Source: a virus. From it: a DNA stretch of 44,617 nucleotides. The stretch covers positions 1 through 44,617 of the IMG/VR virus record IMGVR_UViG_3300013014_000053, one strand, 5' to 3'. Below, piece by piece: positions 2,320 to 20,447 of the stretch. Under the pieces are notes generated by a model, which was not told the origin of the DNA, ran no database searches, and saw only the letters and a program-made list of their open reading frames with translations. Positions within the stretch are counted from its first letter, which is position 1; each line of letters opens with the position of its first letter. A program made the position numbers and the translations under genes.

Positions 2320-2326
2320 CTATTAG

Positions 2327-2370
2327 TATTCATACGCATATTGGATCATTGTAACAAGTTTATTATGAGA
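2327..2370 (+). repeat. Duplicated 3' flank, copy 1
   Basis: This intergenic stretch after the first fibre gene (TATTCATACGCATATTGG and onward) recurs with two substitutions at 5757-5800 after the second fibre gene. The tandem fibre genes were therefore duplicated together with their 3' untranslated sequence. Confidence 0.9.
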
Positions 2371-2410
2371 GAATAGCAATATTATAAATGAATAATTATA
2401 TATTTACTAT

Positions 2411-2418
2411 GATAAATA
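2411..2418 (+). promoter_or_regulatory. T4-like late promoter octamer GATAAATA
   Basis: GATAAATA lies 16 bases before the start codon of the second fibre gene. It resembles the T4 late promoter TATAAATA and recurs ahead of other structural genes in this window. Confidence 0.6.
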
Positions 2419-2434
2419 TATAAAAGATGAATAT

Positions 2435-5749: not shown

Positions 5750-5756
5750 TTATCTT

Positions 5757-5800
5757 TATTCATACGCATATTGGATCATTCTAACAAGTTTGATATGAGA
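5757..5800 (+). repeat. Duplicated 3' flank, copy 2
   Basis: Near-identical to 2327-2370. No T-rich terminator structure is obvious in either copy, so the reason for conservation is unclear beyond recent duplication. Confidence 0.9.
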
Positions 5801-5920
5801 AAAATATGTTTCATGACTTTTAGATAGGCATATATATTCAATACAGCAAGGATCAATTCATATCATTTCTCTAAAAAGATATGCTATTGTCAATGCTAAC
5901 TTTTTATATAAGGAATATAT

Positions 5921-6562
5921 ATGCCATCAAAATTTAACTCTGAATTTAATTACCGTTACCTGGTCAACGGCGAAACACCTTGGGAAAAAATCAAAATCCT
6001 TAAAGGATTTTTGGAAGGTAGAAAACGTGCTGCTTGTTTGGAAGAAGTTGCCGCAAAAAAACGTTTGGCAAAAGAACTAGAATTGGAAAACTGCAAAAAT
6101 AACAATGCATTACCCCATGTTATCTTAAATTTAGAAGCAGAACTCTTAGAATCTAAATCTTTTGATGAAGGACAAAATGAAGCATGGGAATTAAATCGAC
6201 AAGAAATTGCATTTTTAGAAAGTTTTCTAGCAGAAATATATGAGGTCGCTGAACAAACTAGAATTCCCGGTTATACAGATGAACAAATGTTTGAAGCAAA
6301 TGCTGCATACGAGTTTACTGTTATGCTTGGAAAAGAAATTCAAGCAGAAATTATTGCAAATGGTCGACCATCACCTGCAAAATTAAGAAATGCTATGTCA
6401 AATCCATATACATTTGAAACTTTGAAGAGAGTAGGACTAGTTCCACAAGAAGCAGTCTTATTAGATACTACTGTTCAAAATCCATTAGAGTTGGCATTTA
6501 ATGAAGTTGTTACTGAAACTAAAAATTTACAAATTCAACATAGTAACGTAAAAACAGAGTAA
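5921..6562 (+). CDS. Conserved phage protein, fibre-associated helper candidate
   Basis: The 213-residue product starts at an ATG preceded by AAGGAATATAT. It is charged and mostly alpha-helical by composition (many K, E, A, L), with no signal peptide or membrane segment. A distinctive stretch near 150-170 contains NGRPSPAKLRNAMSNPYTF. I recall similar proteins beside structural genes of T4-like environmental phages but know no function. Lying between two giant fibre genes and on the same strand, it could be a fibre chaperone or an attachment component; this is inference from position only. Confidence 0.6.
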   Translation: MPSKFNSEFNYRYLVNGETPWEKIKILKGFLEGRKRAACLEEVAAKKRLAKELELENCKNNNALPHVILNLEAELLESKSFDEGQNEAWELNRQEIAFLESFLAEIYEVAEQTRIPGYTDEQMFEANAAYEFTVMLGKEIQAEIIANGRPSPAKLRNAMSNPYTFETLKRVGLVPQEAVLLDTTVQNPLELAFNEVVTETKNLQIQHSNVKTE

Positions 6563-6624
6563 TCTTTGTACCTAAAAATCATTTGGTATAAAGATGTACT
6601 GTGCAGGTAAGATAATATAAATTT

Positions 6625-6632
6625 GATAAATA
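6625..6632 (+). promoter_or_regulatory. T4-like late promoter octamer GATAAATA
   Basis: GATAAATA stands 28 bases before the third fibre gene, which has a TCAGGA ribosome-binding region just before its ATG. Same octamer as ahead of the second fibre gene. Confidence 0.6.
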
Positions 6633-6660
6633 TTCATAGAATATATTTCAGGAATATCCA

Positions 6661-9600
6661 ATGACCTATGCACAGTACAATCTTATAGAAGCATCTGATT
6701 TCAATGCCCTAATTGGTAACAATCCTGGTAATACAGCAAATACACTTAACACTACATGGGCCGTTGGTAACGGTAACGCTGGTTACGGACAGCAGCAGGT
6801 AGCAAATGTTGCTATAGGATATACTGTTGCTAATATTGATTGGGCTACTTTAATTAATAATACCGCAAACTCAGCGGCTCATCAAGGTTCTACAATTACT
6901 AGTGTTACTCCACCTTCTGGCGGAAATACTATAGCATATATTGCTGCGGTTACAAATAATTTAACTACAATTTATAATAATCGTCTTAATGCAGTAGCGC
7001 AAGGGCTGATCCCTGCATCTAACACTGTTACTAGTGGTAACACGTGGACTAGTAATATAGTATTCACTCAGACAGCATCTTTTGCGAATGGTGATGCGGC
7101 TCGATACTTTTTTAATGCAGGTGGACAGTTAGTTATTACCTGTGCTCATCCAACTGGTAGTACAATTAACAATATATTCCATGGTTTAGCTGCAAACATA
7201 GGCAATGTTACATTAAGTTCACCTACAACAGGTGTTATAAATGTTGCCGGTAATTCGTTTAGTGGTATTAGTAAATTAGGAGGAAGTGGACAAACACCTA
7301 GTATACTTACTAACAATGGGTATTATGCGTTGACAACTAGTAACGCAAATGTATTTACACAAATTGATGGTGTGGATTCTACTTTTAGTTCTAGCTATAT
7401 TAATATAAAAGTTAAATCTAATGGAACTCAAGGTAGTTACGGAGATGCAGGAAATGTTATAACATTCTATACTACATGGCAGGAACTACCAGTTGGTACG
7501 ACAGTATCAGCAGGTACGGCAACTACGCTAACTGCGATTTATCCATCAAGTAATAATATTGCCAACACTTGGGGTACGGTAACTGTTCAAGGATCATCAC
7601 CGATCACACCAACAACTACTACTACAACTACAACAGGCCCGGGCACTACAACTACAACTACAGCAGCTCCATCACCAGCTCCAGCTGGATCTGCTATATT
7701 TGGATTTGGATTTGGTACTAAACCGAGTGGTCAAGGTGCACTCAACATGACCAATCTAGTAAATTATTTTGGTGTTGTTGCTACAGATACCACTGGTGTT
7801 GGTACTGAAAGATCTGGTCTAGCAGCAGCAGGATATGGTGTTGGTCAGGCTATATTTGGATTTGGTTACACCGGTGGTGGTACTTATTTTTCGATCACCA
7901 ATCTAGTATCTAGTGCTGGTGTTGTTGCTACAGATACGACTGGTGTTGGTACTGCAAGGCGAGAACTAGCAGCAGCAGGATATGGTAGTGGTCAGGCTAT
8001 ATTTGGATTTGGTGAAGACGCCGGCTCGGTTGCCGTTTCAATAACCAACCTAGTAGATAATACAGGTGTTGTTGCTACTGATACTACTGGTGTTGGTACT
8101 GCAAGGAATGGACTAGCAGCAGCCGAATATGGTGTTGGTCAGGCTATATTTGGATTTGGAAGTTCTTCTGGTGGGTATTATACGAATATAACCAATCTAG
8201 TAAATAATCTTGGTGTTGTTGCTACTGACCAAACTGCATTAACTGGTACTATAAGATCTAGACTAGCAGCCGCAGGATATGGCGGTAATAAAGCTATATT
8301 TGGATTTGGAAATGATGGGGTATCTCATGTTTCAATTACCAATCTAGTATCTAATCTTGGTGTTGTTGCTGCTAACCAAACCGCATTAACTGGCACAGCA
8401 AGATCTAATCTAGCAGCAGCAGGATATGGTGGTGATAAAGCAATATTTGGATTTGGAGCTTTTGGTAGCGGTTTAACCCGAACTTCTATAACCAATCTAG
8501 TATCTAATCTTGGTGTTGTTGCTGCTGATGTTACTGGGGTTGGTACTGCAAGGCAAGATCTAGCCGCAGCAGGATTTGGTAGTGGACCCCCACCATTGAC
8601 TACAACTACAACTACAGCAGCTCCAACACCTACACCTGGATCTGCTATATTTGGATTTGGATTGAATAATGTCGGCGATGAAACATCAATAACCAATCTA
8701 GTAAATAATAACGGTGTCGTTAGTAATGATGTTACTAGTGTTGGTACTGCAAGGCAAAGTCCAGCAGCGGCAGGATATGGCACTGATAAGGCTATATTTG
8801 GATTTGGATTTGCAAATCTACTAAGTTACATCGCAATAACTAATCTAGTATCTAATCTTGGTGTGGTTGCCACAGATACTGCTGGTGTTGGTACTCCAAG
8901 ATCTGCTTTAGCAGCAGCAGGATATGGTGGTGATAAAGCTATATTTGGATTTGGTAATGATAATAGTGGTGCACCTTTTTCAATGACCAATCTAGTAAAT
9001 AATCTTGGTGTGGTTGCTGCTGATACCACTGGTGTTGGTACGGCAAGATATGGTCTAGCAGCAGCAGGATTTGGTGTTGGTCAAGCTATATTTGGATTTG
9101 GAAATACTGGCATTGCTGTTTCAATAACCAATCTAGTAGATAATAACGGTGTTATTGTTTCTGAAACTGCTGGTGTTGGTACTGCAAGATATGGTCTAGC
9201 AGCAGCAGGGTATGATAGTGATAAAGCTATATTTGGATTTGGTAGATCATCTAGTTTAACATCAATAACCAATAAAGTATCTAATCTTGGTGTCGTGCAG
9301 GCTGATGTTACCAATCTTAGCTCTACAGCAAGAGATGCTCTAGCAGCAGCAGGATACGGTAGTGGTCAAGCTATATTTGGATTTGGTAGAGTAGGCCCCT
9401 CATCGGGAACTGCTTCGGTTCGAATAATCAATCTAGTAAATAACCTAGGTACTATTGTTAGTGAATCTGCTGGTGTTGGTACTCCAAGGTCTGGACTAGC
9501 AGCAGCAGGGTATGGTGGTGTACCTCCTTCGCCACCTACAACTACAACTACAACTACAATAGGCCCAGGCACTACAACTACTACTACAACCGCAAGTCCA

Positions 9601-11604
9601 GGACCAACTAGAGATGGAAAAGCTATATTTGGATTTGGATTTGCTGGCGGCTCTGATGTTTCAATAACCAATAAAGTAAATAATATTGGTACTGTTACTA
9701 CAGATACTACAGGTGTTGGTACTGCAAGAGTAATACTAGCAGCCGCAAGTTATGGCGGTGATAAAGCTATATTTGGATTTGGACGGGCCGGTGGCATCGA
9801 TGTTTCAATAACCAACCTAGTATCTAATCTTGGTGTTGTTGCCACAGATACAACTGGTGTTGGTACTGCAAGATATGGACTAGCAGCAGCAGGGTATGGT
9901 GGTGATAAAGCTATATTTGGATTTGGGGTGGGATCGCTTGCGTCGTCCACAATAATTAATCTAGTATCTAATACTGGTGTAGTTGCTACAGATACGGCTG
10001 GTGTTGGTACGGCAAGATCTCAACTAGCAGCAGCCGGCTATGGTTATGATAAAGCTATATTTGGATTTGGAGCAAGTGGGGTTGGTTTATTCTCAATAAC
10101 CAATCTAGTAAATAATCTTGGTGTTGTTGCTACAGATACTGCTGGTGTTGGTACTCCGAGGTATGGTCTAGCAGCAGCAGGATATGGTACAGACAAGGCA
10201 ATATTTGGATTTGGTGTTACTAGTAATCCAACTAGTATAACCAATCTAGTATCTAATCTTGGTGTTGTTATTGTTGATCAAGCCGCATTAACTGGTACTG
10301 CAAGATATGGACTAGCAGCAGCAGGATATGGCGGTGATAAAGCTATATTTGGGTTTGGTTTTACCAACATTTCTCTTGGCAACCCTACTAACGTAACCAA
10401 TCTAATAACTAATACTGGTGTGGTTGGCAATGATGTCACTGGTGTTGGTACTGCAAGGTCAGGTCTAGCAGCAGCCGGATATGATAATGTACAACCACTG
10501 AATTATACATTTCCGATACCTGGTACTTACTCTGTAGCACCTATACCCGGCTACCCCTATCTTGCACTAGAATTGGTTGGTGCGGGGGGCGGTGGAGGCG
10601 GCACTGATGGATACGGCGCTAGTTATGCAGGTGGTGGCGGTGGTTCTGGTGGGTATTCTTTTGATATTTTAGATACTACCGGAACAAGTGGTAACTTCAC
10701 TGTAACTGTAGGCGCTGGCGGAACTGCTGCTAGTGCTAGCCTCGACGGTACTGTTTATCCAGGTGTACCTGGCATAACTAGAACTGGTACAAAAAATGCT
10801 GGAACCGGAGGCATATCTTCACTACTATACGGTTTAACAAATTATTATACTGCTCTAGGAGGAGTTGGAGGTACCGGTAATACAGGTAGTAACGATGATG
10901 GTGTGGGCGGAGCTGGCGGTATAGGTAGAACTATTTCTGGTAATCCTGGAGTCACCCCTTCTACTCCGATAGATATTTATCCAGCAGCAGCAGGAGGCGC
11001 TAGCGTATATGGTGGATTTGGTACAGGTGGAGCTAGTCAAAATAGTAACTTTACTTCTAATTCAGATGCAAACTTGCCACAAGCCGGTGGTAATGGTTAT
11101 GTAAGAATGCAATTCTCTAGCACTCTACCTAGTACAACTACTACAACTACTACTGCTGCACCAAGTGGTACTATCAATACTGCATTGTTTACTTACTTAA
11201 CAAATAATAGTTTTTATGGATCAATTTCTGGTGGAACCGATGCTAGCACATATATTTTATTTTATTCTAACGGTAACTTTGCAATTCTTGATCAATCAGG
11301 AACTAATTTAACCAATGGAGCCCCAACTAATCAATATTGGTTCAGTGGGGGATTTGTAACTCCGGGATTAGTCCATTGGTTCAGATTTACACAAACTGCT
11401 GTGAATGGTTATACCGCTACAGCTACAACTGGTTGGATTCAACCAGGAGTCGCCGGGATCGCAGCAGCATATGTAGCAAATAATTATAATGCAACTACAG
11501 ACGCAACTTATACCATAGAAGTTGCGTCAGATTCATCAGGTACTAACATCGTAGCAACCGCTACCGGGGTGTTAATATCCGCAACACAGTACCCTCCCCC
11601 GTAA
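6661..11604 (+). CDS. Giant tail-fibre/adhesin with three six-blade propellers, glycine-rich domain and C-terminal domain
   Basis: The 1647-residue product has a different N-terminus from the two other fibres: about 310 residues rich in N, T and G, starting MTYAQYNLIEASDFNALIG, probably a virion-attachment or shaft region. A Thr-rich linker leads to three blocks of six AIFGFG blades separated by Thr/Pro linkers. After the last blade comes a glycine-rich domain (about 1280-1480; runs such as GAGGGGGG and GNGYVRMQF) like the glycine-rich tip domains of phage adhesins. A short Thr linker then leads to a beta-rich C-terminal domain of about 140 residues ending TQYPPP, which I do not recognise. 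Eighteen blades in all. Probably a receptor-binding fibre. Confidence 0.82.
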   Translation: MTYAQYNLIEASDFNALIGNNPGNTANTLNTTWAVGNGNAGYGQQQVANVAIGYTVANIDWATLINNTANSAAHQGSTITSVTPPSGGNTIAYIAAVTNNLTTIYNNRLNAVAQGLIPASNTVTSGNTWTSNIVFTQTASFANGDAARYFFNAGGQLVITCAHPTGSTINNIFHGLAANIGNVTLSSPTTGVINVAGNSFSGISKLGGSGQTPSILTNNGYYALTTSNANVFTQIDGVDSTFSSSYINIKVKSNGTQGSYGDAGNVITFYTTWQELPVGTTVSAGTATTLTAIYPSSNNIANTWGTVTVQGSSPITPTTTTTTTTGPGTTTTTTAAPSPAPAGSAIFGFGFGTKPSGQGALNMTNLVNYFGVVATDTTGVGTERSGLAAAGYGVGQAIFGFGYTGGGTYFSITNLVSSAGVVATDTTGVGTARRELAAAGYGSGQAIFGFGEDAGSVAVSITNLVDNTGVVATDTTGVGTARNGLAAAEYGVGQAIFGFGSSSGGYYTNITNLVNNLGVVATDQTALTGTIRSRLAAAGYGGNKAIFGFGNDGVSHVSITNLVSNLGVVAANQTALTGTARSNLAAAGYGGDKAIFGFGAFGSGLTRTSITNLVSNLGVVAADVTGVGTARQDLAAAGFGSGPPPLTTTTTTAAPTPTPGSAIFGFGLNNVGDETSITNLVNNNGVVSNDVTSVGTARQSPAAAGYGTDKAIFGFGFANLLSYIAITNLVSNLGVVATDTAGVGTPRSALAAAGYGGDKAIFGFGNDNSGAPFSMTNLVNNLGVVAADTTGVGTARYGLAAAGFGVGQAIFGFGNTGIAVSITNLVDNNGVIVSETAGVGTARYGLAAAGYDSDKAIFGFGRSSSLTSITNKVSNLGVVQADVTNLSSTARDALAAAGYGSGQAIFGFGRVGPSSGTASVRIINLVNNLGTIVSESAGVGTPRSGLAAAGYGGVPPSPPTTTTTTTIGPGTTTTTTTASPGPTRDGKAIFGFGFAGGSDVSITNKVNNIGTVTTDTTGVGTARVILAAASYGGDKAIFGFGRAGGIDVSITNLVSNLGVVATDTTGVGTARYGLAAAGYGGDKAIFGFGVGSLASSTIINLVSNTGVVATDTAGVGTARSQLAAAGYGYDKAIFGFGASGVGLFSITNLVNNLGVVATDTAGVGTPRYGLAAAGYGTDKAIFGFGVTSNPTSITNLVSNLGVVIVDQAALTGTARYGLAAAGYGGDKAIFGFGFTNISLGNPTNVTNLITNTGVVGNDVTGVGTARSGLAAAGYDNVQPLNYTFPIPGTYSVAPIPGYPYLALELVGAGGGGGGTDGYGASYAGGGGGSGGYSFDILDTTGTSGNFTVTVGAGGTAASASLDGTVYPGVPGITRTGTKNAGTGGISSLLYGLTNYYTALGGVGGTGNTGSNDDGVGGAGGIGRTISGNPGVTPSTPIDIYPAAAGGASVYGGFGTGGASQNSNFTSNSDANLPQAGGNGYVRMQFSSTLPSTTTTTTTAAPSGTINTALFTYLTNNSFYGSISGGTDASTYILFYSNGNFAILDQSGTNLTNGAPTNQYWFSGGFVTPGLVHWFRFTQTAVNGYTATATTGWIQPGVAGIAAAYVANNYNATTDATYTIEVASDSSGTNIVATATGVLISATQYPPP
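7693..8583 (+). repeat. Six-blade propeller block 6
   Basis: Six AIFGFG blades between Thr-rich linkers. Blade junctions use both GGDKAIFGFG and GVGQAIFGFG variants. Confidence 0.85.
8644..9519 (+). repeat. Six-blade propeller block 7
   Basis: Six blades; the final two carry irregular cores (ADVTNLSST and IVSESAGVG). Confidence 0.85.
9622..10485 (+). repeat. Six-blade propeller block 8
   Basis: Six blades ending LAAAGYDNV, followed directly by the glycine-rich domain. Confidence 0.85.
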
Positions 11605-12653: not shown

Positions 12654-12971
12654 ATGCAAGCAAAAATTTTATCTATATTACTTTTGTTTCCCTTAAGTGC
12701 GATAGCACAACACCATCATCATGGTATGAGACATTTTGATCATCATCAAGCTCATCGTGGAGGATGGGGTTGGGTAGCACCTGCTGTCATCGGCGGGGCT
12801 GTAGTATATGGGTTAACTCGTCCTTCTCCTGTAATAGTTCAACAACCAGTCTACATTCAACAGCCTCCCGTTGTTGTTCAGCCTCAGGTTGTAATTATTG
12901 ATGGAGTAGAGTATACTAAACAAACTATGATAGTAAATGGTGTATCACAAGAAGTTTTGATACGCCAGTAA
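12654..12971 (+). CDS. Secreted His-rich small protein
   Basis: The 105-residue product starts after AAGGAGTTACAAA. Residues 1-19 form a convincing signal peptide (basic start, leucine-rich core, cleavage near AIAQ). The mature N-terminus is packed with histidine (HHHHGMRHFDHHQAHRGG), followed by a short hydrophobic segment (APAVIGGAVVYGL) and a Val/Pro/Gln-rich region (VIVQQPVYIQQPPVVVQPQ), ending in a small polar tail. The His cluster suggests metal binding in the periplasm; similar His- and Pro-rich envelope proteins are common in proteobacteria. Its role in infection is unknown. It may be a host-derived gene acting on the envelope during lysis or superinfection. Confidence 0.7.
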   Translation: MQAKILSILLLFPLSAIAQHHHHGMRHFDHHQAHRGGWGWVAPAVIGGAVVYGLTRPSPVIVQQPVYIQQPPVVVQPQVVIIDGVEYTKQTMIVNGVSQEVLIRQ

Positions 12972-12989
12972 AGAATTGTTGTAAAAACC

Positions 12990-13290
12990 GAAAGGAAAGA
13001 AGCAAGTTAAAAGACGGGCAAGACTCGGGTTCGACTCCCGACCGGTCCACCAAAAGCATACTAGAGTGATGCTGGGGAAGAGTAATAGTCAGCGGTTAAT
13101 AAATCTTCCAAGTATGCTTTTGATGGGCCGGCCATGGTATCGATTGACGGATGAGTAGATGAGTGGACAACACGATAGGCGATGGACGTAATCCAAGCAA
13201 AATCTATAAATGCCAACGATGAGGTATTTGCTATAGCCGCATGAGGCTGAGCCGGAGTAGGAAAGACTCTGTAAAATAACTAACCTGTAA
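12990..13290 (+). ncRNA. ssrA: Permuted two-piece tmRNA
   Basis: The acceptor piece comes first: T-arm TCGGG-TTCGACT-CCCGA (13025-13041), acceptor strand CCGGTCC (13042-13048) and encoded ACCA (13049-13052). The coding piece follows, beginning GGGCCGG (13125-13131), which pairs over all seven positions with the acceptor strand and creates G3-U70, the alanine identity pair. The intervening spacer is closed by an exact 12-bp stem (13051-13062 with 13111-13122), typical of the excised loop of permuted tmRNA. The coding piece carries a D-arm-like TGGTATCGATTGACGG and a tag frame at 13212-13244 encoding ANDEVFAIAA then TGA, matching the usual tmRNA tag style. 13002-13009 and 13281-13288 can pair imperfectly as the P2 helix joining the two pieces. 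Outer ends are approximate. Confidence 0.93.
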
Positions 13291-13316
13291 TAGGCCCGAA
13301 AGGGCCTATTATTTTG
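13289..13316 (+). terminator. Rho-independent terminator of ssrA
   Basis: A perfect 9-bp stem AATAGGCCC/GGGCCTATT with GAAA tetraloop, followed by a T-rich tract. It sits just after the tmRNA coding piece. Confidence 0.9.
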
Positions 13317-13342
13317 TTGTTTTTCCGCAACAAACCCAAAAT

Positions 13343-13371
13343 TTGACATTAATTGGGTATAAGCGTATACT
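13343..13371 (+). promoter_or_regulatory. Sigma-70 promoter
   Basis: TTGACA at 13343-13348, 17-bp spacer, TATACT at 13366-13371. It drives the gene at 13402. Confidence 0.85.
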
Positions 13372-13401
13372 GTATCTATAGTGAGAAACAAGGAGAGCGA
13401 G

Positions 13402-13773
13402 ATGAGCGAACTGACTTACAAGACTTGGGAAGAGTACACTCCGCTTGAGCAGGCTGCAATGACCTACTGGGATATGTACAAGGACGCTTACAATTTCCGC
13501 CCCCGTAGTGTGGACACGTCCAAATGGACACTAGCAGACTTCCAAAAGGAGTTCGAAACCCTGCAGTTTATCATCAACCGCAATGAGGCCCAACGTATCG
13601 AGGACGAGGCTGCGGCTGTCGCCCGTTTCGAAGCCCGTATCGCTAGCATCATCCAATTGGGTGCTAAGGATCGTGCAATGGCACTGCGTTGGATTCACGA
13701 GGCTGAGGACACGGACGGCGACGATGAGTACCTCTGCTACACGGTTGGCATCCCTTATGGATATTTCAAATGA
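13402..13773 (+). CDS. Small acidic conserved phage protein
   Basis: Start chosen at ATG 13402 because AAGGAGAGCGAG precedes it; an upstream in-frame GTG at 13381 lies at the predicted transcription start and has no ribosome-binding site. The 123-residue product is acidic and helical, with a central E/A/R-rich segment and a C-terminus DEYLCYTVGIPYGYF. No membrane segment or known motif. The gene is visibly richer in G and C, with CGT/CGC arginine codons, than the fibre genes, like the other sigma-70-driven genes that follow. Function unknown; expected early expression from its own promoter. Confidence 0.7.
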   Translation: MSELTYKTWEEYTPLEQAAMTYWDMYKDAYNFRPRSVDTSKWTLADFQKEFETLQFIINRNEAQRIEDEAAAVARFEARIASIIQLGAKDRAMALRWIHEAEDTDGDDEYLCYTVGIPYGYFK

Positions 13774-13883
13774 CATTCACTTTAACTACCCCAACTGGTA
13801 AGGTCATGCAGTTCTATTTGCAGGCTACGGCTGAATTGTATCAGATACTTTACCAAGGCACAATCACTAAGGCTTCTGCTTGA
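13770..13883 (+). CDS. 37-residue small protein
   Basis: The ATG overlaps the upstream stop (ATGA at 13770-13773), implying translational coupling. The product has a TTPTGKVMQFYLQATAELYQ core that I recall from other phage small proteins. Its TGA stop lies inside the TTGACA of the next promoter. Function unknown. Confidence 0.6.
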   Translation: MTFTLTTPTGKVMQFYLQATAELYQILYQGTITKASA

Positions 13884-13908
13884 CATTAATTCAGGCAGTT
13901 GCTATAAT
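13880..13908 (+). promoter_or_regulatory. Sigma-70 promoter for the MoxR-like gene
   Basis: TTGACA 13880-13885, 17-bp spacer, TATAAT 13903-13908. The -35 contains the stop codon of the preceding small gene. Confidence 0.9.
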
Positions 13909-13942
13909 CTTTTTATCGTAGTTTTTTCAACAGGAGTAAGAA

Positions 13943-15043
13943 ATGGCTCAAGTATCTGACAATCTCACCGTTACTAGTGTTCAGGCCCGTAAAGCAATTC
14001 TCAAGGCTTTCAAGGTCAAACGTCCCGTGTTTCTCTGGGGCCCTCCCGGTATCGGTAAGTCTGAGGTTGTTTCTGAAATCACCGAGGAGCTTGGTGGTTT
14101 TATGATTGATTTGCGTATGGCACAAATGGAACCCACTGATATTCGTGGTATTCCTTTCTTCAATAAAGACATTGGCAAGATGGACTGGGCTCCCCCGGTT
14201 GATCTCCCTGACGAGGAACTTGCTAGTCAGTACCCTATCGTCTGTCTGTTCTTGGACGAGATGAATTCGGCTGCCCCTGCTGTACAGGCTGCAGGATATC
14301 AGTTGATTCTCAATCGCCGTGTTGGTAAGTACAAACTTCCTGACAACGTGGTTATTGTTGCGGCAGGCAACCGTGATAGCGATAAGGGTGTTACTTATCG
14401 TATGCCGATGCCCCTTGCTAATCGGTTCTTGCATATTGAAATGCGACCCGATTTTGCTTCGTGGCAGAACTGGGCAGTTAACAAAGGCATCCATAAGGAT
14501 GTGGTTGGTTATCTGTCTTTCGCTAAACAGGATCTCTATGATTTTGATTCAAAGTCCTCTAGCCGCGCATTCGCTACTCCCCGTAGCTGGTGCTTTGTCA
14601 GCGATTTGCTGAATGATGACGAAGACACGGACTCTGATACACTGTTCAACTTGGTCGCAGGTTCTGTAGGTGAAGGTCTTGCTGTTAAGTTTATGGCACA
14701 CCGTAAGGTTGCAGGTCAGATGCCCGAGCCTAGCGATATTCTCGCAGGTAAGGTCAAAGAACTCCGTGTCAAGGAAGTGTCGGCAATGTACTCCCTCACG
14801 ATTAGCCTGTGCTATGAATTGAAGGACGCTCTTGACAACAAACGTGTCAACACCAAACAATTCCACGAAATGGCTGATAATTTCTTCAGCTACATCATGG
14901 CAAACTTTGAAACTGAGTTGGTCGTAATGGGTGCGAAGGTTGCTCTGAAAACGTATCGTCTTCCGATCGAACCCAGTCAGTTGAAACATTTTGATGACTT
15001 CCACAAGAAGTACGGCAAGTACATTGTAGAAGCAGGTAATTAA
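13943..15043 (+). CDS. MoxR-type AAA+ ATPase
   Basis: A 366-residue AAA+ protein with Walker A GPPGIGKS (33-40), Walker B LFLDE (102-106) and a sensor-1 region VIVAAGNRDSD near 135-145, followed by an RMPMPLANRF arginine-finger-like segment. This is the layout of the MoxR/CobS branch, chaperone-like ATPases that act with VWA-domain partners on metal-containing or other complexes. The start is backed by CAGGAGTAAGAA. It has its own promoter and terminator, and the VWA partner lies immediately downstream, so the two probably form a complex. The substrate in the phage is unknown. Confidence 0.85.
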   Translation: MAQVSDNLTVTSVQARKAILKAFKVKRPVFLWGPPGIGKSEVVSEITEELGGFMIDLRMAQMEPTDIRGIPFFNKDIGKMDWAPPVDLPDEELASQYPIVCLFLDEMNSAAPAVQAAGYQLILNRRVGKYKLPDNVVIVAAGNRDSDKGVTYRMPMPLANRFLHIEMRPDFASWQNWAVNKGIHKDVVGYLSFAKQDLYDFDSKSSSRAFATPRSWCFVSDLLNDDEDTDSDTLFNLVAGSVGEGLAVKFMAHRKVAGQMPEPSDILAGKVKELRVKEVSAMYSLTISLCYELKDALDNKRVNTKQFHEMADNFFSYIMANFETELVVMGAKVALKTYRLPIEPSQLKHFDDFHKKYGKYIVEAGN

Positions 15044-15044
15044 T

Positions 15045-15069
15045 AAAAGGGGAGGCAACTCCCTTTTTT
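15045..15069 (+). terminator. Rho-independent terminator
   Basis: GGGAG-GCAA-CTCCC stem-loop (15050-15063) followed by TTTTTT, directly after the MoxR-like gene. Confidence 0.85.
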
Positions 15070-15072
15070 CAC

Positions 15073-15101
15073 TTGCAATTAAATACGGTATGTGTTATAA
15101 T
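15073..15101 (+). promoter_or_regulatory. Sigma-70 promoter for the VWA gene
   Basis: TTGCAA 15073-15078, 17-bp spacer, TATAAT 15096-15101, then AAAGGAG before the ATG at 15130. Confidence 0.8.
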
Positions 15102-15129
15102 ATAACATATATACGATAAAGGAGTAGGT

Positions 15130-16416
15130 ATGAGTGATGTAGTCGCCCCAACTAAAAAGCGTAAACGTAGTAAAAAATTTGAAAATTTGGTCGGCCCTAC
15201 CGATGCCAAAGTAGACTTCAATGCCCGTGAGCGGTTGGTAACTGCCCGCATTGGTCTGCTTCTCCGTCATTCATTCTTTGGTAACCTTGCAACCCGTATG
15301 CAATTGGTTAACGCCGATGAATGGTGCTCTACAGCCGCTACTGACGGATTGAAATTCTATTACAATTCTCGGTTTATTATGATGCTCAAGCCCAAGGAAG
15401 TTGAATTCTTGGTTGGGCATGAAGTACTTCATGTAGTATACGATCATATTGGTCGTCGAGGCAACCGTGATCCCCAACTTTGGAACATTGCTGATGACTA
15501 CGCGGTTAATGCCGACTTGAAACGGCACAAGGTCGGTGAGTTTATCAAAACGGTTCCTTGCTTGTATGAAGCAAAATATGACGGTAAGAGTGCCGAAGAA
15601 ATCTATGATGACCTTTATGAGAAGGCTGAAAAGATTAACATTGAGGATCATATCGACCAAATGATTGATGATCATATGGAAGGTGAGGGTTCTGAGTCTG
15701 AAGGTGACGGCGAAGAAATTGACGGTAGTGGTAAGGTCAAAGGTCGTCCGAAAATGTCTGGTGAGGAACGTGAACGTGTTCGCCAAGAAGTAAAACAGGC
15801 TATCATCAATGCGGCTTCTTCTGCTGAAGCAGGTTCTATTCCTAAAGGTGTTGAGCGGCTGATCAAACAGCATACTAACCCAATAATGCCTTGGCGTGAA
15901 TTGATTCAGACTAATTTGACAAGTGCTATTCGGACTGACTTTAGCTTTATGCGTCCTAATCGTCGAGGTTGGCATATGGACGCTATCATGCCTGGGATGA
16001 CCCCAGGTGAAGAAATCGATGTTGTAGTTAGCCTTGATATGTCGGGTTCTATTACCGATAAACAAGCTCAGGCATTCTTGGGTGAGATTGCCGGTATGAT
16101 GGATGCGTTTGATGGATATCGGGTGCATGTATTTTGTTTTGATACAGAAACTTACAATCCACAAGACTTTACCAGCGAGAACTTGGATACAATTGATTCA
16201 TATGAACCAGTTGGTGGAGGTGGTACTGATTTTGATTGCATCTTCAGTTATCTTAAAGAAAATGCAATTGTGCCCAAACGTTTGATTGTGTTCACGGATG
16301 GCTACCCTGGTGGTAGCTGGGGAGATCCTGACTATTGTGATACCACATGGATCATTCATGGTGACAAGGATCCTAATCCCCCATTTGGGACGTTTGCACT
16401 ATATGACGGGGCATGA
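15130..16416 (+). CDS. Metallopeptidase-like/VWA-like protein (DUF2201-type), MoxR partner
   Basis: The 428-residue product has an N-terminal zinc-peptidase-like domain with HEVLH at 97-101 and another His at 106. A highly charged acidic linker (about 160-225) separates it from a C-terminal VWA-like domain with a MIDAS DMSGS motif at 303-307 and later GGGGTDF and FTDGYPGG motifs. This two-domain plan matches the DUF2201 family, which bacteria and phages encode beside a MoxR-type ATPase. The pair here has separate sigma-70 promoters rather than one operon promoter. The biological substrate is unknown; metal binding and remodelling are inferences from the family. Confidence 0.85.
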   Translation: MSDVVAPTKKRKRSKKFENLVGPTDAKVDFNARERLVTARIGLLLRHSFFGNLATRMQLVNADEWCSTAATDGLKFYYNSRFIMMLKPKEVEFLVGHEVLHVVYDHIGRRGNRDPQLWNIADDYAVNADLKRHKVGEFIKTVPCLYEAKYDGKSAEEIYDDLYEKAEKINIEDHIDQMIDDHMEGEGSESEGDGEEIDGSGKVKGRPKMSGEERERVRQEVKQAIINAASSAEAGSIPKGVERLIKQHTNPIMPWRELIQTNLTSAIRTDFSFMRPNRRGWHMDAIMPGMTPGEEIDVVVSLDMSGSITDKQAQAFLGEIAGMMDAFDGYRVHVFCFDTETYNPQDFTSENLDTIDSYEPVGGGGTDFDCIFSYLKENAIVPKRLIVFTDGYPGGSWGDPDYCDTTWIIHGDKDPNPPFGTFALYDGA

Positions 16417-16651
16417 TCTAATATATGAATCCCCCGATAAGGGGGAAACTATATATGCTAGAAAAGTAGGATCTACTGACAGGGTGTTAATTTCAATGAG
16501 TGAAAAGGCTTGGTCTCGTATCAATGAACAAGAGCAAGTCGAGATTTGGAAAGATATTAGAGGATTAGCAAAAACCAATCCATCGTTGAATGATGTATTG
16601 GATAGATTGTTAGTAGTTTATAACCTTATCAAAAAAGAAAATTCACTATGA
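16403..16651 (+). CDS. Small conserved phage protein
   Basis: The start at ATG 16403 overlaps the end of the VWA gene by 14 bases in another frame. The first part, HDLIYESPDKGETIYARK, looks like a small beta domain I recall from other phages, so the shorter alternative at 16496 is less likely. The 82-residue product has a helical C-terminal half. No known function; probably cotranscribed with the VWA gene. Confidence 0.6.
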   Translation: MTGHDLIYESPDKGETIYARKVGSTDRVLISMSEKAWSRINEQEQVEIWKDIRGLAKTNPSLNDVLDRLLVVYNLIKKENSL

Positions 16652-17055
16652 TGTATATTGGTACAAGCTTGGGTGGTTGCTTGCGTAGCATCCTAGATGG
16701 CGAAGTATCCGAGGACCGTGTTTTGACGATTATTACTAGGACTCACTGCGAAACTTACGATTCGTTGGTCAACGTAGTTAAATTGTATTACTCTGAAGGT
16801 AATAACTATGCTAGAAATCCTCAGCGGTACGACTTAACAAAATTTGATTTTGAGACCGTGTTGGATTTAGCTAGTAGGCTTTATAATTCAGGTAGAATTC
16901 ATCAACCTAGGCTTTACTCAGATAGTGATTATTTGCCTATTGCCTTTGCTTTTCAAGAACTTTGGCTCCAAGTAGTACCAACTAATACTAATTCTTCACC
17001 TGCGGTGATTGATGCGTATGAAAAATACAAGATGTTAGATTCTCTAACCCGATGA
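16648..17055 (+). CDS. Conserved phage hypothetical protein
   Basis: The 135-residue product starts in an ATGA overlap with the preceding gene and begins MMYIGTSLGGCLRSIL. It is a soluble, mixed helical protein with no recognisable catalytic motif. Similar small proteins starting MYIGTSLG occur in other environmental phages, from memory. The overlapping arrangement with both neighbours suggests a translationally coupled cluster 16403-17285. Confidence 0.6.
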   Translation: MMYIGTSLGGCLRSILDGEVSEDRVLTIITRTHCETYDSLVNVVKLYYSEGNNYARNPQRYDLTKFDFETVLDLASRLYNSGRIHQPRLYSDSDYLPIAFAFQELWLQVVPTNTNSSPAVIDAYEKYKMLDSLTR

Positions 17056-17285
17056 TAGAGATTGATCCTGTTGTTTGGTTTAGTGATCGGGAGGTTAATT
17101 TTAAACCTCCACATTTCGTTATGACCAACACTCATATTACTGAAGAATCTAAATTTTGGATTTTAAAAAATTTAAAAGGTAGATTTTCATTAATTGAAAA
17201 TGGTTATATAACAAGGAATAAAAAGTTTGTACCTGCTTTTGAAGATCCACAAGAAGCAATTCTTTATGAGTTAGCTTGGTCTTGA
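17052..17285 (+). CDS. Hypothetical protein, 77 residues
   Basis: Starts in an ATGA overlap (17052-17055) with the upstream gene. The product has a central IENGYITRNKKFVPAFEDPQ segment and no membrane or catalytic motifs. Short proteins ending in a 'DPxEAxLYELAW' pattern may belong to the same broad class as the small LRW-tail proteins near 42 kb, but this is weak. Function unknown. Confidence 0.55.
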   Translation: MIEIDPVVWFSDREVNFKPPHFVMTNTHITEESKFWILKNLKGRFSLIENGYITRNKKFVPAFEDPQEAILYELAWS

Positions 17286-17345
17286 TAAATTTTTAGTATA
17301 TAGTAAAAATCAATTAAATAATGATATAATCAAGGAGAATATGAT

Positions 17346-18026
17346 ATGAGTTTTTTAAGACATGTTGGTAAACACGGTGATCGCAAAGTTGCAGTAATCT
17401 TCCGTGAAGTGCCCGGTGAATCACATATGTGCCTAGTCACATATACAGAAACGTTGAATATGCATATTCATGATCCAATTATTAAATGTATTGAAAGTGA
17501 CATTGGTCAGAACAGTCAAAATCTAGCTGATGCATTACATCGTAGCTATACCAAAGACGGTAAACCAATTTTACAAACACTACACCTTGAAGGACAGTTG
17601 AAAAAAGTTCAAACTGCTCAAATTATAATGACTCCTCAACCTAATACTCAAATTAGATTGGATGAACTGAATAAGATTTTAGATGAGATGCAACAAGGTG
17701 AAGAAGCCGTTAAGCGATTAGCTGAAATGGATAAGAGCATGGGAATGCAAACCAAGTCTGAAGTTATTAGAAAGATGCGTGGTCCACAAACACAACCTGC
17801 ATATCCAACTGGTGATGTAATGGGCGATCAGCAATTGGCTAAACAGCGGTTAGATCAAGCAATTAAGATGGAAAGTGAAGCACAAGGTCTTATGTCTGAA
17901 GCAAAACGGTTAAAGGCAGAGGCAAGGTCACTTGATCCTAATGTAGCACCTACTGGGGAAGCATCAGTTGTTGTGGAGGTCCCATCACCAAAAGCAAAAA
18001 AATCAAGAGCTAAAGCGGTTGCATAA
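17346..18026 (+). CDS. Conserved T4-like phage protein with coiled-coil tail
   Basis: The 226-residue product is preceded by AAGGAG. The N-terminal half begins MSFLRHVGKHGDRKVAVIF and contains VTYTETLNMHIHDPI. From about residue 105 onward the protein is strongly helical and charged (repeated Q, E, K, A), consistent with a coiled coil, and it ends in a basic tail KAKKSRAKAVA. I recall homologues in environmental T4-like phages without a function. The basic tail could bind nucleic acid. It overlaps the next gene (ATG at the stop codon), giving an operon with DHFR and thymidylate synthase. Confidence 0.65.
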   Translation: MSFLRHVGKHGDRKVAVIFREVPGESHMCLVTYTETLNMHIHDPIIKCIESDIGQNSQNLADALHRSYTKDGKPILQTLHLEGQLKKVQTAQIIMTPQPNTQIRLDELNKILDEMQQGEEAVKRLAEMDKSMGMQTKSEVIRKMRGPQTQPAYPTGDVMGDQQLAKQRLDQAIKMESEAQGLMSEAKRLKAEARSLDPNVAPTGEASVVVEVPSPKAKKSRAKAVA

Positions 18027-18322
18027 TGTCACCTGAATTCATTGAAAAATGGGAACACATCCTCGAGGATGTTGAAAAACAAAAAATTCCTATTGGCTTT
18101 ATTAAAAAAGTAGTTATCAAACTAATAGGAAAGAAACAGCAAACTCTGAATATTGAGAAATTTTTAAATCAAGGTTTAGAACCAGAGCAAGTAGAAGATT
18201 TAGTTAATAAAAGATTAACTGAATTGGATGATTTAGTTACTAGCGTAGAATTTATTCTTAATGTACAGAGTATTGCGGACACTGTCCAACCTGAAACGGA
18301 CAGATTATTAGGTAATTTATGA
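18026..18322 (+). CDS. Hypothetical protein, 98 residues
   Basis: Begins at the last base of the previous stop codon and overlaps the DHFR start by four bases. Soluble, helical and acidic, with an NIEKFLNQGLEPEQVEDLVN segment typical of a helix-turn-helix-like or small helical bundle. Not recognised. Tight overlaps on both sides show coupled translation in the nucleotide-metabolism operon. Confidence 0.6.
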   Translation: MSPEFIEKWEHILEDVEKQKIPIGFIKKVVIKLIGKKQQTLNIEKFLNQGLEPEQVEDLVNKRLTELDDLVTSVEFILNVQSIADTVQPETDRLLGNL

Positions 18323-18792
18323 GACTCATTGTTGCCTGTGATCCTAAAGGTGGAATAGGCTATAAGAACAAATTGCCCTGGAGTAAAATCGAGGGCGATT
18401 TGCCAAGATTCAAAAGATTAACTCAGGATAAAACTGTAGTTATGGGTCGCAATACTTGGGATAGTCTTCCAGTAAAACCTTTACCTAACAGATACAATGT
18501 TGTAGTAACTACAAAACCAATTATACTACCTAACAATGTTAAAACAATTGCTCATTTAGATGACTTGAAATATTTTTATGAGCCATGGATAATGGGAGGA
18601 GCAAAGTTAATACAAACATGTTGGGAAAGAATTACTAAAATTCACTTGACCACTACCTTTGCCGAATATGCTTGTGATACTTTTATAGACTTGAAAAAAT
18701 TACGGGGGGAGTTTAGAATTTCACATGAAGAGGTTCGTAGTGACCATACATATGAAATTTGGGACAGAGATCATCCTGATTATTGGAAATAA
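18319..18792 (+). CDS. folA: Dihydrofolate reductase
   Basis: The 157-residue protein has the usual bacterial DHFR length. Visible family motifs are the N-terminal IVACDPKGGIGYKNKLPW (substrate and Met20-loop region), VVMGRNTWDSLP (NADPH site) and IMGGAKL in the middle. It reduces dihydrofolate to tetrahydrofolate with NADPH, regenerating the cofactor consumed by the adjacent thymidylate synthase; T4 carries the same pair (frd and td). It starts in an ATGA overlap with the gene before and ends two bases before the ATG of the synthase. Confidence 0.95.
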   Translation: MRLIVACDPKGGIGYKNKLPWSKIEGDLPRFKRLTQDKTVVMGRNTWDSLPVKPLPNRYNVVVTTKPIILPNNVKTIAHLDDLKYFYEPWIMGGAKLIQTCWERITKIHLTTTFAEYACDTFIDLKKLRGEFRISHEEVRSDHTYEIWDRDHPDYWK

Positions 18793-18794
18793 AA

Positions 18795-19709
18795 ATGCAA
18801 AATTATCATGATTTGCTTAAAGATATACTAGAGAACGGCGAAACAAAAGACGATAGAACAGGTGTAGGTACAGTATCTGTCTTTGGTAGACAATTAAGAT
18901 TTGATTTACGCAAGGGTTTTCCTGCTGTTACTACTAAAAAGTTAGCATGGAAAGCCTGTGTAGGTGAGTTGTTATGGTTTATTGAAGGTAGTGGTGATGA
19001 ACGTAGATTAGCTGAAATTACACATGGTAGTAAAGATGGTACAGTTACCATATGGACTCCAAATGCATTATCAAGTTATTGGAAACCTAAAGCTAAGTTT
19101 GAAGGTGATTTAGGCAGGGTATATGGTGTACAATGGCGAGATTGGAAACATAATACTCTTAAATCTTCCAAACATTATGTTCAACATAGTAAATCTGATA
19201 AAACTCATTATGATTCAACAGTAATGGAAAGGTCAGTTGACCAATTAGCAAACTTATTAGAAGGATTAAAGACAGACCCTAATGGTCGTAGACATATTCT
19301 TAGTGCATTGAATGTCGGTGAATTAGATCAAATGGCATTGCCACCTTGTCATGTTATGAGCCAATACTATGTGAACAAGAACCGTGAATTAAGTTGTCAT
19401 ATGTACCAAAGATCAGTGGATGTTTTCCTAGGATTGCCCTTTAATATCGCTAGTTATGCTCTACTAACTCATTTGATTGCTCATCATTGTGGTTACAAAG
19501 TTGGGGAATTAATTATCAGTACTGGTGATACACATATCTATACCAATCACATTGATCAAGTTAAGGAACAATTGACCCGAGAACCATTGCCCTTACCTAC
19601 ATTGATGTTACCTGTAGAAAAGAAAGATATTTTTGAAATGACCATGAATGATATTCATTTAGAAGGGTATACCAGTCATGGCCCAATCAAAGCGGAAATG
19701 GCTGTATGA
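18795..19709 (+). CDS. thyA: Thymidylate synthase
   Basis: Start taken at ATG 18795; an in-frame TTG at 18783 lies inside the DHFR gene. The 304-residue ThyA-type enzyme has DDRTGVGT near the N-terminus, the catalytic cysteine in LPPCHVMSQ (Cys185), RRHILSALNVGELDQM before it, and RSVDVFLGLPFNIASY after. It methylates dUMP to dTMP using methylene-tetrahydrofolate. It is longer than the 264-residue E. coli form because of an insert around residues 118-150, as in many phage and bacterial enzymes. Its stop overlaps the next gene's start. Confidence 0.95.
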   Translation: MQNYHDLLKDILENGETKDDRTGVGTVSVFGRQLRFDLRKGFPAVTTKKLAWKACVGELLWFIEGSGDERRLAEITHGSKDGTVTIWTPNALSSYWKPKAKFEGDLGRVYGVQWRDWKHNTLKSSKHYVQHSKSDKTHYDSTVMERSVDQLANLLEGLKTDPNGRRHILSALNVGELDQMALPPCHVMSQYYVNKNRELSCHMYQRSVDVFLGLPFNIASYALLTHLIAHHCGYKVGELIISTGDTHIYTNHIDQVKEQLTREPLPLPTLMLPVEKKDIFEMTMNDIHLEGYTSHGPIKAEMAV

Positions 19710-19954
19710 AAGATTACATTGAAACTAAAGTACACACATTCAGTATAGGTGATGTTGATGATCCTGATATCTATGCTTCTCAGCCTCTTTGGGAATTTCA
19801 ACAGACAGAAAAGGGCAAGTGGATTATGGATAATGCTATAGAGCAACCAACTTGGCATAGGTATGTTGATCATGTACATTTTGGTCATACATATGCTATT
19901 ACAGCTAAATTGCCTAAAGAAAAATATACATTTTTCAAACTTAAGTTTGATTAA
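19706..19954 (+). CDS. Conserved small phage protein
   Basis: The 82-residue product begins in an ATGA overlap with thymidylate synthase. Features are an acidic DVDDPDIYASQPLWEFQQT segment and a basic, aromatic C-terminus. Soluble, no known motif. Its position suggests coexpression with DHFR and thymidylate synthase, the last gene before the late-promoter region. Confidence 0.6.
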   Translation: MKDYIETKVHTFSIGDVDDPDIYASQPLWEFQQTEKGKWIMDNAIEQPTWHRYVDHVHFGHTYAITAKLPKEKYTFFKLKFD

Positions 19955-19960
19955 TTGATT

Positions 19961-19978
19961 CCCGTAGATAAATACGGG
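19961..19978 (+). promoter_or_regulatory. Late-promoter octamer inside a hairpin
   Basis: CCCGTA (19961-19966) and TACGGG (19973-19978) are exact complements around GATAAA, and the octamer GATAAATA spans 19967-19974. The spanin ATG is at 19980, about where a T4-type late transcript would start, so the mRNA may be leaderless. Confidence 0.55.
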
Positions 19979-19979
19979 T

Positions 19980-20447
19980 ATGTGGATCTTATCTGTTTTA
20001 CCTAGTTACGCTATACATGGTTTATTATCTGTTGGTATTATTGGTGTAATATTAGGCTTTGTATTAGGGTTTATTCCTTTAATCGGGAAATATAAACTTC
20101 CTATTCAAATTATAAGTATATTAGTTCTAACCCTTGCCTTATATTTAGAAGGTGGGTTAGAAAACGAACGGTTATGGCAATTAAAAGTAAAAGAAGTAGA
20201 AGCTAAAGTTGCGGTATCAGAAGTTAAGGCTGTAGAAAAAACTGTAGAAATACAAGAAAAGATTATAAACAAAACTAAAATCATTAAACAAAAGGGCGAT
20301 GATATAATAAAATATATTGATAAGGAAATCGTTAAAAAAGAAGAGATTATCAAGTACATAGAAAATTGCCCGGTGCCACAGGAAATTATTGAACAACATA
20401 ATAAGATTGTAAACTTATCTAGTCAATCCTCAGGAGAGAAGAAATGA
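19980..20447 (+). CDS. Inner-membrane spanin-like protein
   Basis: The 155-residue product has two predicted membrane segments (about 10-36 and 41-57) and then a long, highly charged alpha-helical region rich in K, E, I and V (about 60-130), the coiled-coil periplasmic design of an i-spanin (Rz). A lipoprotein gene overlaps its stop codon, the usual Rz/Rz1 arrangement. Two membrane segments rather than one is atypical; a holin-like contribution is possible. It would join inner and outer membranes for the last step of lysis. It follows a late promoter octamer. Confidence 0.65.
   Translation: MWILSVLPSYAIHGLLSVGIIGVILGFVLGFIPLIGKYKLPIQIISILVLTLALYLEGGLENERLWQLKVKEVEAKVAVSEVKAVEKTVEIQEKIINKTKIIKQKGDDIIKYIDKEIVKKEEIIKYIENCPVPQEIIEQHNKIVNLSSQSSGEKK

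Follow-up and report, generated by a model that had tools for sequence, protein, structure and literature searches.

Circularly permuted, two-piece tmRNA genes are typical of alphaproteobacterial, some betaproteobacterial and cyanobacterial genomes (PMC9004378). The same paper reports tmRNA in 402 of 18,146 phages; of the 133 unique structures that it describes, 53 are two-piece, and 50 of these 53 come from marine or aquatic samples. Elsewhere, 79 phage tmRNAs and, in a 2025 database, 11,946 permuted tmRNAs are listed (PMC11915505), huge phages with both tmRNA and SmpB are described in a text that leaves the form of the tmRNA unstated (PMC7162821), and the Sinorhizobium jumbo phage AP-J-162 is given one tmRNA and Atu_ph07 none (PMC11242549). 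Regarding the intervening sequence of the permuted gene, PMC11915505 describes one case that contains a tRNA-Ala (GCA-2688965), which is termed unique there, and one that contains a repetitive element.

The DNA analysed here, referred to as the window, is a linear IMG/VR virus record of 44,617 nt (44.6 kb; IMGVR_UViG_3300013014_000053). A preliminary description of its letters had proposed a phage permuted tmRNA at positions 12990-13316, to be checked with ARAGORN and the Rfam covariance models, and the proposal was confirmed by both. ARAGORN called a permuted tmRNA with the tag ANDEVFAIAA, and two Rfam models matched above their gathering scores, these being RF04321 (tmRNA_permuted) at 12994-13244 with 109.6 bits against a cut-off of 47 (E=1.3e-20) and RF01850 (beta_tmRNA) at 12943-13314 with 106.1 bits against a cut-off of 84 (E=2.1e-31). 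Within clan CL00001, beta_tmRNA was the sole clade-specific model reported by Rfam for the window, and tmRNA alone was reported, with no riboswitch.

All elements of the gene were found on the plus strand and in the order previously described, T-arm and CCGGTCC-ACCA ahead of GGGCCGG, so that the 3' half with its CCA lies upstream of the 5' half. The acceptor piece, comprising the 5' strand of helix P2, the T-arm, the acceptor 3' strand and the encoded CCA, was assigned to 12972-13052 from the RF01850 and RF04321 alignments, the predicted fold and the colinearity with a sister viral contig (L122) from 12970 onward, its 5' end being approximate. From sequence, parser and fold, the T-arm was placed at 13025-13041 (stem strand TCGGG at 13025-13029, loop TTCGACT at 13030-13036 and CCCGA at 13037-13041), followed by the acceptor 3' strand CCGGTCC at 13042-13048 and the discriminator A with CCA (ACCA, 13049-13052). 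The same evidence placed the acceptor 5' strand GGGCCGG at 13125-13131, where the coding piece starts, with a presumed RNase P site on its 5' side. All seven acceptor pairs form in sequence and fold, and both G3-U70 and A73 of the alanine identity are present. The intervening spacer at 13053-13124, delimited in the same way, measures 72 nt rather than the 73 bases first counted; it is closed by a stem and has no spanning ORF. The 12-bp spacer stem of the preliminary description (CAAAAGCATACT with AGTATGCTTTTG) is indeed exact and is present in the minimum free energy (MFE) fold, though it starts within the encoded CCA, whose CA supplies the first two bases. The D-loop region CCATGGTATCGATTG at 13132-13146 was placed by the Rfam alignment and by the co-occurrence of T-loop and D-loop types. 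The tag reading frame, GCC...GCA-TGA at 13212-13244, was recovered by ARAGORN as ANDEVFAIAA-UGA, ends in a hydrophobic degradation signal and closes where the RF04321 match ends, at 13244. The terminator that had been noted after it was located at 13287-13312, as an 11-pair stem with a T tail.

The MFE structure of 12972-13190 contains the T-arm, the seven acceptor pairs extended by A73-U, the 12-bp spacer stem and helix P2, the last being absent from the preliminary description. In P2, TGTTGT at 12977-12982 (UGUUGU in the RNA) pairs with ACAACA at 13167-13172 and joins the two pieces. The position of its 5' strand implies that the RNA starts about 15-20 nt upstream of the start first given. 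In a comparison with 200 shuffles, the energy of this fold had a z of -2.78, and a single shuffle was as stable. Since the tmRNA parser accepts a sequence only if it has G3-U70, a paired T-stem and 7/7 acceptor pairs, acceptor and T-stem pairing is unusable as evidence of covariation, for which P2, the sister comparison and the covariance-model matches are usable. Across 144 distinct phage sequences, the strands of P2 vary and the pairing is kept. In a test confined to the position of P2, designed after the weak result of a looser-window test, the helix score averaged 13.50 for own strands and 11.21 for swapped strands (sd 0.149, best 11.66), and none of 200 swaps reached the own-strand value. 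The looser window gave a small excess, 14.64 against 14.21 (sd 0.17, best swap 14.52).

The T-loops and D-loops of 160 parsed phage tmRNAs were also compared, with kinship among the sequences left in the counts. TGGT was found in all 66 D-loops listed for the 72 sequences with T-loop TTCGACT, TAG in 17 and CAG in 1 of the 18 sequences with TGCGAAT, and CAG in the 10 with GGCAGTG. This matching of types presumably reflects the D-loop/T-loop contact of tRNA. Each of the non-standard T-loops TGCGAAT, GGCAGTG and GGCGGTA has its own D-loop type, which suggests a swapped tertiary contact.

The window encodes a large terminase, UvsX, UvsY, SSB and a helicase, phage genes lie downstream of the tmRNA, and phage-type families are found on both sides of it. 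The contig is that of a phage, as had been stated. The accompanying "T4-like" label needs refining, as the nearest cultured terminases include those of the jumbo phages PA5oct, Phosso, GAP32 and Atu_ph07 (43-52% identity); the window is a jumbo-phage fragment. Adjoining the tmRNA, at 13943-16416, is a gene pair encoding an AAA (MoxR-like) ATPase and then a DUF2201 metallopeptidase/VWA protein. At 142-11604 there are giant ORFs of 725, 1104 and 1647 aa. They contain tandem repeats that have diverged, each about 49 codons long (144-153 bp), gave no Pfam match and are probably tail or fibre proteins. Upstream of the tmRNA on the same strand, a single promoter candidate was found, a weak sigma-70-like match (TTGTAA-17-TATACT, 9/12) at 12889-12917 on the plus strand, within the upstream ORF; the 901-base region scanned has three promoter-like sites against 2.0 in shuffles, which is not above chance. 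Among relatives, a sigma-70-like promoter of at least 10/12 was found upstream in 41 of 150 regions, compared with 5 when each of the 150 was shuffled once. A strong sigma-70-like match (TTGACA-17-TATACT, 11/12) lies at 13343-13371, just past the tmRNA terminator and upstream of the next gene.

The sister contig L122 (335,035 bp) is colinear with window positions 12970-20064 at 86% identity. Between the two tmRNAs, 46/51 positions are identical in the upstream piece, 73/76 (96%) in the ACCA and spacer, 130/136 in the rest of the coding piece and 37/38 in the terminator, compared with 15/24 in the T-arm and acceptor 3' strand and 15/22 in the acceptor 5' strand and D-loop. Acceptor pairing is nevertheless full in both (GGGCCGG/CCGGTCC in the window and GGGGGTG/CACCTCC in L122). 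The tRNA-like module, at 13025-13146 in the window and approximately 4084-4204 in L122, differs with compensation, whereas the rest of the tmRNAs is 90-97% identical. The module thus changed on both flanks of a nearly unchanged spacer, perhaps by two recombinations or by serial compensation. The L122 tag, read from the alignment, ends in FSLAA. ARAGORN misses this near-identical copy, which is detected by the covariance model.

The preliminary description had considered a permuted tmRNA unusual in a T4-like phage. This was not borne out, given the two-piece phage tmRNAs of PMC9004378, their occurrence in viral records bearing a relative of the neighbouring ATPase, and cultured phages. From a search of viral contigs for relatives of this ATPase, the best 80 loci were kept, and from these 38 records were taken, mostly by length, including all six with a prior ARAGORN tmRNA call (L143, L147, L149, L150, L156 and L157). 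RF04321 scored above its cut-off in 28 of the 38, or in 22 of 32 when those six are set aside, and the parser accepted 27 of the 28 matches (7/7 acceptor pairs, G3-U70), L228 being the one that failed. No permuted tmRNA was found by RF04321 in the remaining 10 of the 38, which is not proof of its lack because none of the records was rated at least 90% complete. In the other 42 of the best 80 loci, ARAGORN called no tmRNA; this is weak evidence, as ARAGORN also missed L122. Cultured phages with an ARAGORN permuted tmRNA were Synechococcus phage BUCT-ZZ01 (Kyanoviridae) and Brevundimonas phage Bajun. In the BUCT-ZZ01 record (ON615601.1, 116584-117836; L330), hypothetical proteins are annotated over the permuted tmRNA (tag ANDETFSMALAA), which is itself unannotated. 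The window tmRNA and its relatives show that many members of a group of T4-like jumbo phages, for which metagenomes are the main source, carry a two-piece tmRNA. The window tmRNA is an ordinary member of the known phage two-piece tmRNAs, with a short, empty spacer.

When the spacers of relatives were read, some were found to have a Shine-Dalgarno (SD) motif and an ATG right after the CCA. The exact pattern CCACCATAAGGAAGTTTRATG was found in 52 viral stretches, 46 of which were accepted by the parser as permuted tmRNAs, their spacers measuring 151-415 nt; the six rejected were L239, L241, L243, L265, L266 and L280, with L243 and L280 cut at the locus end and L239 a contig with an acceptor mismatch. 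A second, looser pattern gave 29 further loci. Identical copies were left out before counting, as was L026 (721-nt spacer, no ARAGORN call, probably a false parse). L295 was parsed twice and both parses were kept among the 59 long spacers, and L066, where the apparent "tRNA in spacer" is probably a tRNA cluster and not a tmRNA, was retained among the parsed tmRNAs.

Under a strict rule (an ATG ORF of at least 15 codons, starting at most 30 nt from the CCA and stopping at most 12 nt before or 3 nt beyond the spacer end), spacer ORFs were found in 41 of 160 unique parsed tmRNAs, against 3.4% after interior shuffling. An SD-like motif accompanies 40 of the 41, and one of the 41 (L075, 16 aa) is probably a chance case. 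Under a looser rule (an ORF that has at least 20 codons and covers no less than 70% of the spacer), 51 of the 59 spacers of at least 100 nt contained an ORF, compared with an interior-shuffle null mean of 3.8 and maximum of 9 (200 rounds), and so did 3 of 100 shorter spacers. Most of the 59 long-spacer loci had been selected for SD and ATG, the null keeps the SD and start, and the open frame was not selected. The ORFs of L232, L279 and L283 run beyond the spacer and are outside the cargo count. In the ATPase-based sample, which involved no selection for SD or ATG, a strictly spanning ORF was found in 4 of 28 tmRNA records (L213, L219, which equals L141, L220, and L229/L230), and the ORFs of L212 and L217 miss the strict rule, one closing early and one overrunning the spacer. 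A further search, aimed at GGGG-type acceptors, yielded 66 loci, from which 36 unique tmRNAs were parsed; a spanning ORF was present in 16 of these 36 long spacers against 2.4 expected (maximum 6), and absent from 20. Spacer genes were seen in L212, L213, L217, L219, L220, L229/L230 and the sets L232-L283, L284-L312 and L334-L399, in many of these spacers. The 72-nt spacer of the window contains no spanning ORF under either rule.

The 51 cargo ORFs were grouped into 24 families, 12 of them single-member. Among the families are a thioredoxin (PF00085, 4e-21) and a membrane protein with DUF2061 (PF09834, 3.5e-20), besides a 122-aa family and numerous short proteins that are hydrophobic. For 8 of the 10 families tested, no Pfam match exceeded the cut-off, and a PHROGs search of ten families gave E < 0.001 for thioredoxin only. 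A "GNAT-like" label for the 122-aa family was rejected, as Pfam gives it no support. The pN/pS was 0.18 for the 122-aa family (8 sequences), 0.30 (4 sequences) and 0.11 (5 sequences, few changes) for two further families, and 0.92 for the family MSRSSPW (3 sequences, 20 differences), which carries no purifying signal. Selection acts on several cargo families. Tag frames are intact in most cargo-bearing tmRNAs, and folds predicted from the T-arm to the 5' acceptor strand have paired spacer ends in 49 of 51 cases and at least six acceptor pairs in 51 of 51. Similar coding pieces were found with different cargo (L270/L312, 87%; L212/L253, 83%; L220/L252, 81%), and very dissimilar ones with a shared cargo family (L229/L272, 33%; L237/L273, 37%). 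In a protein search for the 122-aa family, 15 of 16 viral loci lay against tmRNA sequence, two being cut at a contig end with one side seen. In the sixteenth locus (L326:1501-1851), the family, 68% identical, occurs as a domain between the QGVAEG repeats of a long phage protein, a possible source of the cargo. In L239/L322, a cargo-bearing tmRNA has the acceptor strands CTGGTCC and GGGCCTG, which no longer match fully, as if after recent recombination. The spacer of L226 (within 1501-1779, minus strand), from an alpha-type permuted tmRNA, contains a tRNA-like sequence for which an unusual anticodon of 4 bases was called.

DNA queries from L213, L237, L250 and L238 and one protein query yielded no cultured phage with a cargo spacer; two matches to phage G in the DNA search covered 7% of the query. 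Among the open-access papers searched, in part through the best 20 matches of a listing, none was found to describe a tmRNA spacer that contains a protein gene, and the parts of PMC3978253 and PMC11898562 consulted contain nothing on the subject. The cargo-slot form looks new as an arrangement. ARAGORN made a permuted call in 36 of 60 long-spacer cases, compared with 87 of 100 short-spacer cases; long spacers make permuted tmRNA genes harder to detect.

SmpB was not found in any of 21 related records, the window included, most of them fragments. This implies the use of host SmpB, and reliance of the phage on host factors is plausible; the window, too, is a fragment, and genome parts beyond it could hold SmpB or a second tmRNA. 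The best Rfam clade model over 20 related loci was beta in 12, alpha in 5 and neither in 3, so that the clade model does not fix the host. The betaproteobacterial model fits the window tmRNA, a fit that need not indicate its host or origin. Two tag-region pattern scans of genome contigs gave no matches, and plasmids gave none.

We consider it probable, at roughly 0.87, that the window RNA is a functional phage-encoded circularly permuted tmRNA, processed by the host, charged by AlaRS, dependent on SmpB and used for tagging during infection. The gene is presumably transcribed into a precursor in which the spacer stem is predicted to continue the acceptor stem. The enzymes that process tRNAs in the host would remove the spacer, with RNase P acting at the GGG end and 3' processing at the CCA, after which the acceptor stem and P2 would keep the two pieces joined. 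The tmRNA would be charged by host AlaRS via G3-U70, host SmpB would carry it to stalled ribosomes, and ANDEVFAIAA, an ALAA-like degradation tag, would be added during infection. The phage may benefit in that ribosomes are kept recycled while host mRNA is destroyed.

In this phage family, the spacer probably doubles as a slot, filled in a number of relatives by a complete small protein gene, the window representing the short, empty form. The cargo SD is predicted to lie within the spacer stem, so that cargo translation and tmRNA maturation may compete. The cargo UGA often appears as part of a UGAU leader beside the presumed RNase P site; where a single U separates this UGA from GGG, excision of the spacer would release a minimal mRNA that has its own SD, AUG and stop. 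The tRNA-like module, the tag module and the spacer cargo would recombine separately, and the window tmRNA would be an empty-slot member with a tRNA-like module unlike that of its sister. We lean slightly towards the wider proposal that the permuted tmRNA is a nested-gene platform, in which an exchangeable spacer slot holds selected protein genes, one precursor gives a two-piece tmRNA and a minimal mRNA, and the modules recombine separately. If true, this would be a new arrangement, in which a stable RNA has a protein gene within the spacer that it discards, presumably expressed from the same precursor, and it yields testable predictions on the coupling of RNA processing to translation.

Two other readings question whether the elements belong to the phage or are genes at all. 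The permuted form, being typical of the bacterial genomes named above (PMC9004378), and the fit of the beta model to the window could point to a captured host ssrA or an assembly chimera, that is, to functionless bacterial DNA misassembled or passively carried. This reading is largely refuted and is very improbable, as the tmRNA is colinear in an independent 335-kb viral contig, permuted tmRNAs occur in 28 of the 38 chosen ATPase-bearing records, and compensating changes in P2 and in the L122 comparison keep the structure. A bacterial insertion or chimera at this point is further made unlikely by the phage genes downstream, with phage-type families on both sides, combined with about 7 kb of colinearity that starts from the tmRNA 5' edge. 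Were the spacer ORFs of relatives chance open frames and not genes, the cargo slot would be wrong. The loci of the exact, looser and GGGG-acceptor scans were selected for an SD-like motif and ATG after the CCA, half of the families (12/24) are single-member, one rests on a TTG start, MSRSSPW is without a purifying signal at a pN/pS of 0.92 (20 differences), and 20 of 36 long GGGG-acceptor spacers lack a spanning ORF. Chance is nonetheless a highly unlikely explanation for ORFs in 51 of 59 long spacers, where a null that keeps the SD and most start codons averages 3.8 (maximum 9), for 16 of 36 against 2.4 (maximum 6), for the Pfam matches to thioredoxin (4e-21) and DUF2061 (3.5e-20), and for pN/pS values of 0.18, 0.30 and 0.11 (few changes) in three families.

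Other readings accept the RNA and differ on its use. It could act mainly as a decoy, either by titrating AlaRS or SmpB or as an inhibitor of trans-translation in the host, for which the tag-less tmRNA-like RNA of phage DS6A, reported to inhibit endogenous tmRNA, offers a precedent (PMC11915505). A decoy would need no tag frame, however, and in the window and most relatives the frame is open with a degradation-tag-like end, so the decoy is improbable. Alternatively, the tag might be altered to serve the phage, for example by marking proteins for a fate other than ClpXP degradation. The window tag ends in AIAA rather than ALAA, and phage tags vary (MAIAA, FLMAA and YRMVA, for example). As most have ends resembling hydrophobic-hydrophobic-Ala-Ala, and the sister tag ends in FSLAA, this reading is deemed unlikely.

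Compared with described systems, the window tmRNA shares with the RF04321 and RF01850 models the gene order, T-arm, acceptor stem with G3-U70, CCA, D-loop and tag frame. It differs from RF04321 in that P2 lies further upstream than the model places it, several outer model pairs are non-standard, and the gene is phage-borne. Methylophilales phage Melnitz and pelagimyophages likewise carry permuted phage tmRNAs, in their case in T4-like myophages and with early expression proposed; in the available text, the Melnitz tmRNA is of alphaproteobacterial/SAR11 type and lies under a glutamine riboswitch, with no spacer ORF mentioned (PMC9004378), whereas the best clade model for the window is betaproteobacterial. 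BUCT-ZZ01 and Bajun share the ARAGORN permuted call, with the tags ANDETFSMALAA and VAANDNAPFAVREAIAA, respectively, and their DNA has only short matches to the window, over 14% and 12% of the query. The case of GCA-2688965, as given in the available text of PMC11915505, resembles the cargo-bearing relatives in that the intervening sequence houses another gene; its cargo is a tRNA, while the window has none and the cargo of its relatives consists of protein genes.
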